From an uncultured Oscillospiraceae bacterium (GTDB taxonomy: Bacteria > Bacillota > Clostridia > Oscillospirales > Oscillospiraceae), in assembly GCA_947630785.1 (NCBI GenBank), contig CANRIW010000015.1, positions 1 through 45,963 on the forward strand: a stretch of DNA of 45,963 nt, in the 5' to 3' direction. The notes below the pieces were generated by a model. It did not search any database, was not told the origin of the DNA, and saw nothing but the letters and a program-made list of their open reading frames with translations. A program made the position numbers and the translations under genes. Shown piece after piece: positions 29,105-44,511 of the stretch (the first letter of the stretch is position 1; every line of letters starts with the position of its first letter).

Positions 29105-31042
29105 TTACGCGCGTTTGAATTGCTTCTCCAGCTGCTTTTTGGTCAGCTCGATGGCCACCGGCCGGCCGTGAGGGCAGTATTTCACCGCGCCGCTCATGAC
29201 CATCCGGGCCACCTCTTCCAGCTCCTCCTGGCCGGAGCGCCAGCCCCCCTTGATGGCCGCCTTGCAGGCCATGGTGTGGAGCAGTTCGTCCCGGACGCCG
29301 GCGGGGTCGGCGGTCCCCGTCACCCGCAGCCGCCGGGCCAGCTCCAGCAGGGCGGGCTCCATGTCCCCGGCGTCCAGATAGTCGGGGGCGGAGCGCACCG
29401 CCAGGGCGTTGGAGCCGAACTCCTCCAGCTCGAAGCCGAACCGGGAGAGCAGATCCGCCTGCTCCAGCAGCAGGGCCCGCTCCTCCGGAGCGGGGGTGAA
29501 GGTGAGAGGGGTCAGCAGCTCCTGGACCATGGGCTTGTAGTCCGCCGCCTTGAGCCGGTCGAAATTGGCCCGCTCGTGGGCGGCGTGCTTGTCGATGAGC
29601 AATACCTTCTCCCCCTGCTCCACCAGCACATAGGTGCGGAACAGCTCCCCCCGAACGACCCAGGGCTCCTCCTCGGGGGCGGGCTCAGGGGCGAGGGCAG
29701 GCTCTTCCTTCGCCCCCTCATCCGTCTCCCTGCGGGAGACACCTTCCCCCCTGAGGGGGGAAGGCTTGGGCGCGGGTTCGTCCACGGGCAGGGGCTTCAC
29801 CCGGCGGAAGGGGGTGGGACTCACCGCCTTTGGCCGCTGGGGGGCCGGGCCGGCGCCCGCCTTATACTCCTCCACCGTCATCCGCTCCCCCACGGGGGCT
29901 TTTGGGGCGGTGTAGTCGTTGAGGGGCAGGGCGGACTGCTTTGGGGCGGGGACGGCGGAGCCGTGCCCCATGGGCAGCGGCAGTTTGGTCTGATGGGGGG
30001 TGACGGTGTCCTCCCCCCTGGGGGCGGCGGAGAGGGACGCCTGGGGCCGGGTGTGATCCCGGTCCAGGGCGGCCAGCGCCGCATAGTACACGGCGGTGTA
30101 CACCGACTGTTCCTTCTGGAATTTGACTTCCGTCTTGGTGGGGTGGACGTTCACGTCCACCTCAGAGGGCCGCAGGGTCAGGTGGATGACACAGGCGGGG
30201 AATTTCCCCACCATCTTCTGATTTTTATATGCCTCCTCCACCGCGGCGGTCATCACCCGGCTCTTGACGTAGCGCCCATTGACGAAAAAGTGCTGATAGC
30301 CCCGGCTCCCCCGGCAGCAGGCGGGCAGGGAGATGAAGCCGGACACGGACATCCCTTCGCCGGAGCCGGTCACCGGCAGCAGACCCAGGGCGATGTCCCG
30401 GCCCAGCACGGCGTAGACGGCGCTCTTCAGCTGCCCGTCCCCGGGGGTGAGCAGTTCCTGCTTGCCGTCCCGGAGGAACTTCACCGACAGCTCCGGATGG
30501 GACAGCGCCACCCGCTGGACCACCGCGAATACGGCGGCCCCCTCAGCCACGTCCTTCTTCATGAATTTTAACCGGGCGGGGGTGTTGTAAAACAGGTCCC
30601 GGACGGAGAGGGTGGTGCCCTTGGGGCAGCCCGCCTCCTCCTGGGAGGTGACCACCCCGGCCTCCAGCGTCAGCACCGTGCCCAGGGCCTCGTCCTCCGT
30701 ACGGGTGCGCAGCTCCACCAGGGACACCGCCGAGATGGCAGCCAGGGCCTCCCCCCGGAACCCCAGGGTGCCGATGGCCTCCAAATCGTACTCGGTGGCG
30801 ATTTTTGACGTGGCGTGGCGGAGGAAGGCGGTGGCGGCCTGGTCCGCCGGGATGCCGCAGCCGTCGTCGCTTACCCGGATGAGGGTCATGCCCCCGTGGA
30901 CGATCTCCACCGTGACGGCGGAGGCCCCGGCGTCGATGGCGTTCTCCATCAGCTCCTTCACCACGGAGGCGGGGCGCTCCACCACCTCGCCGGCGGCGAT
31001 CAGATCGGCCACATGGGGGTCAAGCTGCTTGATAACGGGCAT
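29105..31042 (-). CDS. mutL: DNA mismatch repair endonuclease MutL
   Basis: 645 residues. The GHKL ATPase part (1-330) has E-N-A-I-D-A-G-A, D-D-G-C-G-I and G-F-R-G-E-A-L. A Pro/Ala-rich linker runs ~335-450. The C-terminal part has an endonuclease site: D-K-H-A-A-H-E-R, A-C-K-A-A-I-K and C-P-H-G-R-P. The second residue of the first motif is K instead of the usual Q and the final acidic residue is D. MutL links MutS to strand cutting. The linker contains an in-frame copy of a palindromic genome repeat (about residues 426-444). ATG 31042 has GGAGGT upstream and is two bases from the dtd stop. Confidence 0.95.
   Translation of the reverse strand: MPVIKQLDPHVADLIAAGEVVERPASVVKELMENAIDAGASAVTVEIVHGGMTLIRVSDDGCGIPADQAATAFLRHATSKIATEYDLEAIGTLGFRGEALAAISAVSLVELRTRTEDEALGTVLTLEAGVVTSQEEAGCPKGTTLSVRDLFYNTPARLKFMKKDVAEGAAVFAVVQRVALSHPELSVKFLRDGKQELLTPGDGQLKSAVYAVLGRDIALGLLPVTGSGEGMSVSGFISLPACCRGSRGYQHFFVNGRYVKSRVMTAAVEEAYKNQKMVGKFPACVIHLTLRPSEVDVNVHPTKTEVKFQKEQSVYTAVYYAALAALDRDHTRPQASLSAAPRGEDTVTPHQTKLPLPMGHGSAVPAPKQSALPLNDYTAPKAPVGERMTVEEYKAGAGPAPQRPKAVSPTPFRRVKPLPVDEPAPKPSPLRGEGVSRRETDEGAKEEPALAPEPAPEEEPWVVRGELFRTYVLVEQGEKVLLIDKHAAHERANFDRLKAADYKPMVQELLTPLTFTPAPEERALLLEQADLLSRFGFELEEFGSNALAVRSAPDYLDAGDMEPALLELARRLRVTGTADPAGVRDELLHTMACKAAIKGGWRSGQEELEEVARMVMSGAVKYCPHGRPVAIELTKKQLEKQFKRA
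29713..29766. repeat. Interspersed palindromic repeat inside mutL
   Basis: Contains CCCTCATCCG, then GTCTCCCTGCGGGAGAC (stem) and CCTTCCCCCCTGAGGGGGGAAGG (stem). It is closely similar, in reverse orientation, to 37491-37541. In mutL it is translated as P-S-P-L-R-G-E-G-V-S-R-R-E-T-D-E-G-A. Confidence 0.8.
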
Positions 31043-36893: not shown

Positions 36894-37472
36894 TCAGGGG
36901 TGAAAGGGGAAAAGGCCGAAGTCCTCCTCCAGCACCCGGCCCAGCCGGAACAGGGGAAGGCCCACCACGTTGCCGTAGTCCCCGGAGATGCCCTCCACCA
37001 GCAGGGCGCCCCTTCCCTGGATGCCATAGGCCCCCGCCTTGTCCATGGGCTCGCCGGTAGCGATATAGTCCCTGATGTCCGACTCGCTCAGAGGGCGGAA
37101 GCGGACGGCGGTGTTTTCGTGGAAGGTGACCGACTTCCCGCCGTGGATCACGGTGACCCCGGTGTAGACGTGATGCTCCCGGCCGGACAGGGCGGACAGC
37201 ATGGCAAAGGCGTCCTCCTGGCTGTGGGGCTTGCCCAGGATGGCGCCCTCCAGGGCCACCACCGTGTCGGCGGCGATGATGAGGGGCTCCGGCCCCTCCA
37301 GAGCGGCCACGGCGGACGCCTTCCGGCGGGACAGTTCTTCCACCATACGGGCGGGAGGGGTGCCCGGGGCTGTGGCCTCGTCCACGTCAGAGACGTGGAC
37401 CCGGAAGGTCAGGCCAACCTGGGTGAGCAGTTCCCGCCGACGGGGAGACTGTGACGCGAGGATGATATCCAT
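36894..37472 (-). CDS. maf: Maf/YhdE-type nucleoside triphosphate pyrophosphatase
   Basis: 192 residues. Motifs: L-A-S-Q-S-P-R-R-R-E-L-L at the start, S-R-R-K-A-S-A-V, A-D-T-V-V-A-L-E-G, L-G-K-P (the conserved catalytic loop), T-G-V-T-V-I and G-A-Y-G-I-Q-G-R-G-A. Maf enzymes hydrolyse non-canonical or dTTP/UTP nucleotides and affect septum formation. The upstream gap to the U32 gene holds an interspersed repeat (37491-37541). Confidence 0.93.
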   Translation of the reverse strand: MDIILASQSPRRRELLTQVGLTFRVHVSDVDEATAPGTPPARMVEELSRRKASAVAALEGPEPLIIAADTVVALEGAILGKPHSQEDAFAMLSALSGREHHVYTGVTVIHGGKSVTFHENTAVRFRPLSESDIRDYIATGEPMDKAGAYGIQGRGALLVEGISGDYGNVVGLPLFRLGRVLEEDFGLFPFHP

Positions 37473-37490
37473 TCAGATTGACTCCTTTTG

Positions 37491-37541
37491 AGCTCTCCCC
37501 CCTGGGGGAAGGTGCCCCCGCAGGGGGCGGATGAGGGGGGC
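37491..37541. repeat. Interspersed palindromic repeat upstream of maf
   Basis: CTCCCCCCTGGGGGAAGG, then GCCCCCGCAGGGGGC and GGATGAGGGGG. It is the second copy of the element found in frame in mutL at 29713-29766, with compensating changes in the stems. It fills most of the 74-bp gap between U32 and maf. Confidence 0.8.
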
Positions 37542-37546
37542 GCGTT

Positions 37547-39631
37547 TTATTCCACGTCCCGGTAATAGAGGCCCCGGGTGTAGCCGTTGGGGACGTAATT
37601 CCCCTCGCCCCGGTAGCGGTCCAGCACCTGGGCGCACTCCACGCCGTTCTCGGTAGTGAACAGCAGGCGGAGGGCGGACACGCCGGCCCGCTTATAGTCG
37701 GCCTCCCTGTCCGCCAGGTACAGCTTGTTGGCGTTGAGGATCTCGTTGCGGCAGCCGGGGGCCCGCTCCACCGGAAAACGGACGCCCTTCCGGTCGGTGA
37801 GCAGATTCACGTTCCCGCACACGCACTTGCCCGACTGGTTTTTGACGGCGCAGTTCTCGGTGATCATCAGGGGCAGGCGGCCGTAGGCGATGAGCTCCAC
37901 CGGGACGGCCTTGGCCAGGTCCCGGATCTGGGCCAGCTTCAGCTCAAAGGAGGCGGTGAGGGTCTCGAACCCCATCCGCTTGTACTCCTTGATGGCCTGG
38001 CTGTTGAACACGTGGAGGCCGAAATCCCCCCGGAGGCGGAACCCCAGCTCCCGCGCCAATGAGACAGAGCCCAGGTTGCCCAGAAACGCGTCGGCCACGC
38101 CGGCCTTCCGGCAGACCTCCAGCTGACGGCGGAGCTCGTCCAGCTCCCGGTCCAGGCAGATGCGGGGCAGCGCCGCCGCCACGGGCACCTGCCGGTCCAT
38201 CACCGCCCGGATCTCATCCGGGTGGGCGGCGATCTCCCCAGCGGGCAGGAGGATCAGATCGGGCCTGCGCTTCAAAAGTTCAAAGGTGAGCTGCTCCGCG
38301 CGCCGGAGGGACACCTGAATGGCCGGCTGTCCGCGGAAATTCTCGTACCGGGCGCCCATGCTGTACTGCCCGTGGCGGCGCTCCGGAAGGACGGTCCGCT
38401 GGCGGGACAGCTCCTCCAGGGCCTGACGCCGCAGGCCGTTGACAGCCGACAGGGGGACAGACAGCCCGTCCTCTACCAGGGCGAAGGTCCGCTCCGCCCG
38501 GTAGGGGGTGCCGCCGGTCTTGGAGAGCTGGGCCTCCACGATCTCCCGGGTCACGGGCCGGTTCCGGGCCAGCTCGGGCAGCTCGCCGGAGACGGTAGCC
38601 TGACGGCCTTCCGGGTCCTCCACGCCCACCTGGATGGGCTGGCCCACGCGGACCATGGCGTAGAGCTTCACCGGGACACGGGGGCCTTCTCCCTTTTCGA
38701 TGGCCGCCCGGGCGGCGGCGAACAGCTCTTTTGGCTCGGAGGCGTCCTGCCGGACGCCGAACATATCGGGGCCCTTCTTCCCGGTAAAATATCCGTCGGT
38801 AAAGCCCTGGCGGGAAAATGCCTGCTCCAGCCGGCGCATCTCCGCCGGAGAGGGCTCCCGTCCGTCCATCAGAGCGGAGGCGTAGGTCCTGGTGACGATG
38901 TAGACGTATTCGGGGCGCTTCATGCGCCCTTCGATCTTGGCGCAGGCCACCCCCATGCTCTCAAGCTCCTTCAGATGGCCCGCCAGGGACAGGTCCTTCA
39001 GGGACAGGGGATAGCGCTCTGCCAGTTCGTCCCCCCAGCCGTAGGGCAGGCGGCAGGGCTGGGCGCACATCCCCCGGTTGCCGCTGCGCCCGCCGATGAC
39101 GGAGGACATGAAGCACTGGCCGGACCAGCACATGCACAGTGCCCCGTGGACGAACACCTCGATCTCGATAGGGGAGCGCTCACAGATATAGGCGATGTCC
39201 CGCCCGGACAGCTCCCGGCCCAGCACCACCCGCCTCATCCCCAGGTCTGCCGCCGCCTTGACGCCGTCCAGGTTGTGGATGGTCATCTGGGTGGAGGCGT
39301 GGACGGGCAGGTCGGGTGCCACCTGGCGCAGGATGCGGACGATGCCCATGTCCTGCACCAGCACCGCGTCCGCCCCCAGCCGGGAGGCCTCTATGGCGCA
39401 CTCCGCCGCCGCGGCCATCTCCCGGTCGGAGCAGAGGGTGTTCAGCGTCAGATAGACCTTTACCCCCCGCAAATGGCAATAAGAAACCGCCTCCGCGAGC
39501 TCCTCGGAGGTAAAATTCCGGGCGCCGCGGCGGGCGTTGAATTGTCCGAATCCCAGGTAGACCGCGTTGGCCCCGCCGCAGACAGCGGCGCGCAGGGCCT
39601 CCGGACTGCCCGCGGGGGCCAGCAGTTCCAT
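37547..39631 (-). CDS. U32-family peptidase-like protein (RlhA/collagenase-like)
   Basis: 694 residues. The U32 barrel starts M-E-L-L-A-P-A-G-S-P-E-A-L and has V-Y-L-G, A-D-A-V-L-V-Q-D-M-G, F-V-H-G-A-L-C-M-C-W-S-G-Q-C and R-S-G-N-R-G-x-C-A-Q-P-C-R (iron-sulfur cysteines), K-I-E-G-R-M-K. A DUF3656-like C-terminal part follows. Despite the peptidase name, several members (RlhA, TrhP, UbiU) are prephenate-dependent or iron-sulfur RNA hydroxylases; the same role in tRNA or 23S rRNA ho5C formation is likely here. It follows zapA with a 21-base gap. Confidence 0.87.
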   Translation of the reverse strand: MELLAPAGSPEALRAAVCGGANAVYLGFGQFNARRGARNFTSEELAEAVSYCHLRGVKVYLTLNTLCSDREMAAAAECAIEASRLGADAVLVQDMGIVRILRQVAPDLPVHASTQMTIHNLDGVKAAADLGMRRVVLGRELSGRDIAYICERSPIEIEVFVHGALCMCWSGQCFMSSVIGGRSGNRGMCAQPCRLPYGWGDELAERYPLSLKDLSLAGHLKELESMGVACAKIEGRMKRPEYVYIVTRTYASALMDGREPSPAEMRRLEQAFSRQGFTDGYFTGKKGPDMFGVRQDASEPKELFAAARAAIEKGEGPRVPVKLYAMVRVGQPIQVGVEDPEGRQATVSGELPELARNRPVTREIVEAQLSKTGGTPYRAERTFALVEDGLSVPLSAVNGLRRQALEELSRQRTVLPERRHGQYSMGARYENFRGQPAIQVSLRRAEQLTFELLKRRPDLILLPAGEIAAHPDEIRAVMDRQVPVAAALPRICLDRELDELRRQLEVCRKAGVADAFLGNLGSVSLARELGFRLRGDFGLHVFNSQAIKEYKRMGFETLTASFELKLAQIRDLAKAVPVELIAYGRLPLMITENCAVKNQSGKCVCGNVNLLTDRKGVRFPVERAPGCRNEILNANKLYLADREADYKRAGVSALRLLFTTENGVECAQVLDRYRGEGNYVPNGYTRGLYYRDVE

Positions 39632-44210: not shown

Positions 44211-44287
44211 GGCGGCGTAGCTCAGTTGGCTAGAGCACTCGGTTCATACCCGAGTTGTCACCGGTTCGAATCCAGTCGCCGCTACCA
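44211..44287 (+). tRNA. tRNA-Met (CAT), elongator
   Basis: 77 nt including encoded CCA. The acceptor stem is GGCGGCG / CGCCGCT with G1-U72, as in Firmicutes elongator tRNA-Met. Anticodon loop TTCATAC. Anticodon stem CTCGG/CCGAG excludes the initiator, which has three G-C pairs. The T-stem has a C-A mismatch (51-63). Confidence 0.92.
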
Positions 44288-44289
44288 AT

Positions 44290-44323
44290 CCCGGAGAAGC
44301 GGCGAGGGAGCCGCCTCTCCGGG
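44290..44323 (+). other. Hairpin between tRNA genes
   Basis: CCCGGAGA and GCGGC pair with GCCGC and TCTCCGGG. No T-run follows, so it may aid processing of the tRNA transcript rather than end it. Confidence 0.5.
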
Positions 44324-44356
44324 CTATCCCCAATATCCGCCCGCCTCGGGCACCGC

Positions 44357-44431
44357 GGCCCGGTGGTCAAGCGGCTAAGACACCGCCCTTTCACGGCGGT
44401 AACACGGGTTCGATTCCCGTCCGGGTCACCA
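44357..44431 (+). tRNA. tRNA-Glu (TTC)
   Basis: 75 nt with CCA. Acceptor GGCCCGG / CCGGGTC, anticodon loop CTTTCAC, stem CCGCC/GGCGG, T-loop TTCGATT. Confidence 0.93.
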
Positions 44432-44435
44432 ATAC

Positions 44436-44511
44436 GGAGGCTTAGCTCAGCCGGTAGAGCGCTTGCTTCACACGCAAGAGGTCACAGATTCGAGTTCTGT
44501 AGTCTCCACCA
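44436..44511 (+). tRNA. tRNA-Val (CAC)
   Basis: 76 nt with CCA. Acceptor GGAGGCT / AGTCTCC, anticodon stem CTTGC/GCAAG, loop TTCACAC, T-loop TTCGAGT. Last tRNA before an AT-rich accessory region. Confidence 0.9.

Follow-up and report, generated by a model that had tools for sequence, protein, structure and literature searches.

The RPEs of Rickettsia are dispersed palindromes that lie between genes and also in frame within the genes of unrelated proteins; they measure 105–146 bp and carry terminal inverted repeats (PMC2229807). The CGTC REPs, which include RPE-4 and RPE-6, are palindromic as well, form dimers, have many intragenic copies in DNA repair genes and lack a dedicated transposase, and their own features are a single 8–9 bp stem whose first two pairs are A/T and a terminal CGTC that is left unpaired (PMC3733652). 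For the GTAG REPs and REPINs, inverted doublets have been described as the mobile unit (PMC3116915). Since PMC3733652 reports both REPs in DNA repair genes and CGTC REPs without a transposase, the principle is already known, and what is added here is the repeat family itself, its distribution, which takes in viral contigs, and its stems made almost only of Watson-Crick pairs. We have found no description of this repeat in the literature, the coverage of which was partial with few subscription journals, so that this is weak evidence for novelty.

We have analysed a window of 45,963 nucleotides, i.e., the whole stretch of DNA presented above, which belongs to the genome called G000 here. The mutL linker holds an element that reads AAGCCTTCCCCCCTCAGGGGGGAAGGTGTCTCCCGCAGGGAGACGGATGAGGGGGCG (Table 1), and K-PSPLRGEGVSRRETDEGA is the in-frame translation of this two-hairpin repeat within the gene. 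According to Pfam, MutL consists of an N-terminal ATPase, DNA_mis_repair (to residue 322), a variable linker rich in P, A and E, and MutL_C (from residue 467), and the 18-residue peptide PSPLRGEGVSRRETDEGA makes up residues 427–444 in the linker. Codon counting places its DNA at 29711–29764 on the minus strand. The original prediction, which gave 29713..29766, was therefore right about the element and 2 bases off in its span, and its reading of the peptide as the translation of a two-stem repeat is confirmed by the sequence and the folds. The whole copy in Table 1 includes the leading AAG, while the covariance-model match covers 29716–29767. In DNA folding the copy forms two hairpins, with z values of −3.81 and −3.77 on its two strands, and in RNA folding the z values are −2.93 (at −34.1 kcal/mol) and −3.04. 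The pattern GGAAGGTG..GGATGAGG matches twice in the window, at the mutL copy and at the 37490 copy, and never in 100 window shuffles. The structure prediction of MutL, with a mean pLDDT of 44, is too poor to show disorder of the linker. At the Rfam gathering score the window has no match except three tRNAs; three consecutive tRNA genes lie at 44211–44508 on the plus strand.

Table 1 Coordinates of the elements and their host or neighbouring genes in the window.
Feature	Position	Strand	Basis or remark
Two-hairpin palindromic element, in frame in mutL	29711..29767	−	Also in L033 and L034; absent from L035, L036 and L041
Stem 1, CCTTCCCCCC TCA GGGGGGAAGG, 10 pairs	29742..29764	−	DNA and RNA folds; model positions 4–26
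Stem 2, GTCTCCC GCA GGGAGAC, 7 pairs	29724..29740	−	Fold; differs between copies
Unpaired tail, GGATGAGG	29716..29723	−	Unpaired in DNA fold; invariant, though search patterns demanded it
mutL, 645 aa + stop	29105..31042	−	Pfam, PDB matches, protein alignment
Decayed second copy, in the maf-U32 spacer	37490..37541	+	Model match 37490–37536
maf, downstream neighbour of the second copy	36894..37472	−	ORF; name from earlier note; matches in 25/25 genomes searched
U32-type gene, upstream neighbour of the second copy	37547..39631	−	ORF; name from earlier note

The general layout of the element is AAGCCTTCC-stem 1-GGAAGGTG-stem 2-CGGATGAGG, about 50–57 bp. Compared by description, it differs from the longer RPEs in this size and in having two separate hairpins, and from the CGTC REPs in having two stems, of which stem 2 is free in length and sequence, and the GGATGAGG tail. 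The geometry of the CGTC tag is not found, as GTC is paired in the mutL copy and all 29 aligned copies have G-C as their outermost stem-2 pair, where the C was not demanded by the pattern used for those. GTAG is absent from the consensus of these 29 copies, and the copies with 12-base flanks do not show it as a constant flanking motif either. On the other hand, inverted doublets like those of the GTAG REPs are found here: the element occurs singly or as tail-to-tail inverted dimers, and 14 of the 19 adjacent strict pairs have the tail-to-tail order, with gaps of 26–53 bp. In several copies (L225, L103, L026, L104, L226, L260) the leftward extension TTCCTCTAAAAGCC, or a sequence near it, is seen, which may point to a subfamily with a longer left end. 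We have also observed a sister repeat of the same layout with the frame GGGAGCTG..CTGAGGG. It gives 13 pattern matches in G000, one of them not a hairpin; the 12 hairpin copies lie on contigs C2, C6, C7, C8, C12, C23, C43 and C44 (L235, L236), and the pattern search finds none in G051. Two of 15 stem-2 types taken from it in five genomes are identical to types of the mutL-element family.

With a strict pattern, six copies are found in G000 and none by the reversed control, while a fixed-length pattern matched one copy only. The covariance model, for which 29 distinct copies were used, gives 37 matches in G000 at E up to 1, several being other-strand echoes, and 10 strong copies above 45 bits; that is, the genome-wide count proposed at the outset yields 10 strong copies in G000, with further copies in relatives. 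At E ≤ 0.001 the model matches in 26 of the 42 congeneric genomes, with 65 matches in G007, where about a dozen copies are clustered within 30 kb (C1:138000–168000). Three genomes (G040, G006, G021) have many matches of only ~37 bits, which may represent the sister family. Across the class, a looser pattern occurs patchily, in 46 of 391 sampled genomes and 30 of 222 genera; two genomes match the reversed control, and at least four of the 46 (G428, G411, G253, G352) have a single match without a hairpin that looks like chance.

The scan of named genomes gives at least 119 stretches. The 80 listed are mostly Clostridia-type records (Pseudoflavonifractor, Lawsonibacter, Intestinimonas, Gemmiger, Butyrivibrio and many MAGs), and among these listed matches there are also Selenomonas, two Bifidobacterium, Bradyrhizobium, Mesorhizobium, Rhodanobacter, a betaproteobacterium and a planctomycete. 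The RIME1 mosaic elements of Rhizobium consist of two large palindromes in intergenic DNA; in this general description they may resemble the present repeat, whose pattern is also found in records of Bradyrhizobium and Mesorhizobium. In viral contigs, which may contain host DNA, at least 120 stretches are found, with up to 6 copies in 8.7 kb among the 80 loci listed. Four such stretches (L369, L389, L408, L409) carry 4–6 copies each, L369 having 6.

The second copy in the window was originally said to keep its stems. This is true of stem 2 (GTCTCCC/GGGAGAC in mutL vs GCCCCC/GGGGGC here) but not of stem 1, which has lost pairs kept by the orthologues: it is partly broken in G000 and intact in G007 and G008, and the copy of G024 has diverged too. 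With its flanks the 37490 copy folds no better than shuffles (z −0.14 as DNA, −0.35 and −0.74 as RNA). The element is present upstream of maf in 4 of the 25 genomes searched (G000, G007, G008 and G024). The maf-U32 spacer without it measures 22 bases in G004 and 20 in G051, and the remaining 19 genomes have unrelated spacers upstream of maf. At another site, a dimer (L228, G000 C1:93397–93558) is present in G000 and absent in G051, G024 and G004; it precedes a gene that we take from its sequence to be ileS-like, and on its other side lies an apparent T-box leader with a terminator. A dimer on C18 of G007 is missing from G051, G000, G004 and G008, and G024 has a remnant of it. The maf-U32, ileS-type and C18 sites thus show that the element is gained or lost as a unit.

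Other sites are less simple. At the C8 site, different hairpins occupy the same gap in G004 and G007 and none is found in G051 and G024. This gap, which we assume to be purH-purD-like (L227, G000 C8:48210–48339), holds different hairpin repeats in G000, G004 and G007, as if it were a hot spot. At the C12 site, G008 is without the dimer yet retains AAGGCTT, the end of the element, so scars or a target preference are possible; three other rows misalign on the left there. The inserted blocks at the compared sites include additional bases beside the element. As for the features of MITEs, the element dimers are inverted, and inspection by eye reveals no target-site duplication at these sites.

A MutL match was obtained in 40 of the 42 congeneric genomes, and 30 of the loci were fetched. 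The covariance model matches mutL in three of them, G000, G007 and G008, and the model search finds no element in the other 27, including three congeners with ~90% DNA identity over mutL, so the insert is indeed absent from the mutL of some relatives, as had been proposed for checking. A weak match (E 0.043) at L037 1107–1155 is outside mutL. In G004, G051 and G024, with 89–90% identity over mutL, the linker at the element position is unrelated, and the linker is freely variable in 20 aligned MutL proteins. The carriers have MutL of 645 (G000), 660 and 646 aa, and the non-carriers G004 and G051 have 654 and 639 aa. Given these lengths and the very variable linker, the mutL site is neither a simple gain of 18 residues nor a clean pair of filled and empty sites, and the segment may have replaced MutL linker as well as lengthened it. 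The six-species tree from the mutL ends and maf is poorly supported in its branching (key supports 25–47); the mutL copy probably dates from an ancestor shared by G000, G007 and G008, unless it passed among them.

Among the three mutL orthologues, the 57 bases of the element carry four substitutions. One lies in the AAG and another in loop 2, and the remaining two are the two sides of the second stem-2 pair, which is T-A in G000 and C-G in the two congeners. As the other printed G000 copies do not have the mutL stem 2, this double change was not copied from those. All four substitutions alter an amino acid, which is readable as positive selection, and the frame is kept in three species; both would be expected if the peptide had been selected as a useful linker segment of MutL, the DNA palindromy being incidental. 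We consider this very improbable, since two of the four changes jointly restore a DNA pair, 27 of the 30 mutL loci are without the element, and this DNA is also found in intergenic positions and, read in other frames, in unrelated proteins.

Intragenic copies are a minority of the copies seen. In the survey for them, 206 copies led to 37 rows (34 distinct ORFs) that pass the length rule. Pfam was applied to 20 of the 34 ORFs and matched 4, of which tex is the only one then confirmed as an insert; in the Pfam results L190 may be a 5′ leader, L136 matches phage domains, and L124 (PALP) gave no PDB match. For the viral copies, with 30 rows listed, 10 ORFs were submitted to Pfam and 3 matched, one below the cut-off; L399 has a Hydrolase_2 match. 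PHROGs matched 4 of 10 proteins (9 viral ORFs and a phage-type gene).

The tex of a betaproteobacterial MAG contains an in-frame inverted dimer as an insert of ~38 aa: it is aligned with PDB 2oce on both sides, and query residues 287–324 fall between chain residues 250 and 255. In the phage-type gene (phrog_36399) of G008 and G007, the element is in frame in the C-terminal linker. This gene has no Pfam match and no plasmid relative; the element peptide is absent from the 15 aligned of its 16 viral relatives, which mostly have shorter linkers, that of L342 being longer. In a phage Sak4-like protein the element follows the AAA domain. None of the 15 aligned relatives (of 78) has the full peptide, and L483–L485 show a remnant-like VPPSPQGEG at the element position. 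In the phage ParB-like proteins L389 and L372 it stands behind the ParB-like part, where relatives align poorly, so this case is weaker. Residence in frame, which characterises the RPEs, is therefore found in mutL, the phage-type gene, tex and the Sak4-like gene, and less firmly in the ParB-like ones, and the earlier parallel with Rickettsia, a repeat turned into protein without a break of frame, is supported.

The idea that the element is built to be coding was rejected. It has fewer open frames (4.11/6) than its dinucleotide shuffles (4.87/6), a deficit partly due to the TGA of the tail that the pattern demands, and the element lengths fall into all three classes modulo 3 (75, 62 and 57 of 194). 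As open frames are not enriched, the kept frame reflects the insertions that survived and is not a property of the repeat. The mutL insertion survived because the frame was open by chance and the linker tolerates a peptide rich in P, S, G and E. The element is best read as a REP/RPE-like mobile palindrome tolerated in variable linkers, which most likely has no function in MutL.

The stem covariation check gave a strong result in stem 2. In the 29 copies there are 49 double-change cells vs 15.3 in shuffles, both sides are changed in 7 of the 9 pairs, and the covariation score is 0.207 vs 0.055 for shuffles, which leave the relatedness of the copies in place, and at most 0.060 for slid controls. 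The invariance of stem 1 (six pairs) and of the tail proves nothing, since the search pattern demanded it. From 228 copies we obtained 157 distinct stem-2 sequences, of which 142 symmetric ones were counted and 15 dropped. They contain 938 Watson-Crick, 20 G-T and 110 mismatched pairs. That is, G-T makes up 20 of 958 standard pairs, or 20 of 816 (796 Watson-Crick) without the outermost, pattern-fixed pair, while pairing the letters of different copies as a control gives 7231 Watson-Crick and 1009 G-T pairs (1009/8240). In the viral set (84 sequences, 7 dropped), which may repeat types already counted, there are 483 Watson-Crick vs 5 G-T pairs (5/488). Among the 110 mismatches, 59 are a stereotyped G-A at pair 2, seen in 59 of the 142 types.

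Selection on RNA usually goes through G-U. With so few G-T pairs, pairing appears to be kept as DNA, which suggests maintenance at the DNA level, by hairpin copying or cassette exchange, and not by RNA selection; low G-T would also be seen in young copies derived from masters with perfect pairing. Of the earlier claim that the RNA or DNA fold matters, it seems that the kept pairing holds, and for DNA rather than RNA. A functional RNA structure (terminator, mRNA stabiliser or attenuator) spread by selection, with the mutL copy tuning the mutL mRNA, is unlikely on these grounds. It would agree with the strong RNA fold of the mutL copy and with copies that lie between same-strand genes (maf-U32) or in a leader (ileS-type), but G-T pairs are few, the maf copy is without some pairs of stem 1 and its fold is not better than that of shuffles, close relatives lack the element at the same sites, and Rfam gives tRNAs only. 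Copies at the same site with identical stem 1 differ in several pairs of stem 2 (G000/G007 and G008/G007), a pattern that whole-hairpin replacement or recopying would give. Template switching yields multi-base compensatory changes in RNA stems, and such hairpins share with ours the compensatory changes of the arms, though in PMC8794818 they are described for RNA genes and not for dispersed repeats.

No dedicated transposase was found in the search for Y1-type enzymes at 14 loci, some of which are ended by contig ends. Only one locus (L062, G031) has a nearby copy, on one side and ~330 bp away, no RAYT flanked by copies is seen among the Y1 loci examined, and none of the four Y1 proteins scanned passes the cut-off of the REP transposase model (REP_Tyr). 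Among 40 genomes, 7 carry strict repeats; a Y1 match is present in 5 of these 7 and also in 13 of the 33 others; G017 and G002 have copies and no Y1 match. G000 itself encodes an IS200-type Y1 transposase (C18:29170–29505, L072), with no copy of the element within the surrounding 4 kb. A GTAG- or CGTC-tagged REP moved by a RAYT would share the look of the present repeat, i.e., a short palindrome, inverted dimers and intragenic copies in repair genes (PMC3733652, PMC3116915). We regard it as quite unlikely, as the aligned copies are without GTAG and the GTC of the other strand is inside stem 2 and paired. RAYT mobilisation is likewise not supported by the Y1 loci, the REP_Tyr scan or the co-occurrence in genomes.

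Taken as a whole, we think it probable that the element is a dispersed non-autonomous palindrome, moved in trans as a hairpin, carried by phages, maintained as DNA and neutral in MutL. It would spread as a hairpin, probably single-stranded, through an enzyme supplied in trans, and phages would carry it between species. Stem 2 may stay paired through recopying of the hairpin as DNA, by template switching from arm to arm or by replacement from another copy. We offer more tentatively a wider proposal: a two-hairpin mobile family in several bacterial phyla and in phages, with stem 2 as an exchangeable cassette, an enzyme that reads hairpin DNA, and a recurrent supply of P/S/G-rich linkers to proteins of bacteria and phages. 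There, the frames CCTTCC..GGAAGGTG..GGATGAGG and GGGAGCTG..CTGAGGG would hold stems whose sequence is free and which undergo swapping or recopying at the DNA level, and the G-A mismatch at pair 2 could be a recognition mark for the enzyme.

Scarcity of G-T pairs in freely varying stems offers a simple discriminator between RNA selection and DNA hairpin copying. The turning of palindromes into protein, best known in Rickettsia, is extended by this work to the source genus, a betaproteobacterium and viral contigs. Since most of the in-frame cases followed are in variable linkers, linker sequence may repeatedly arise from repeats of this kind.
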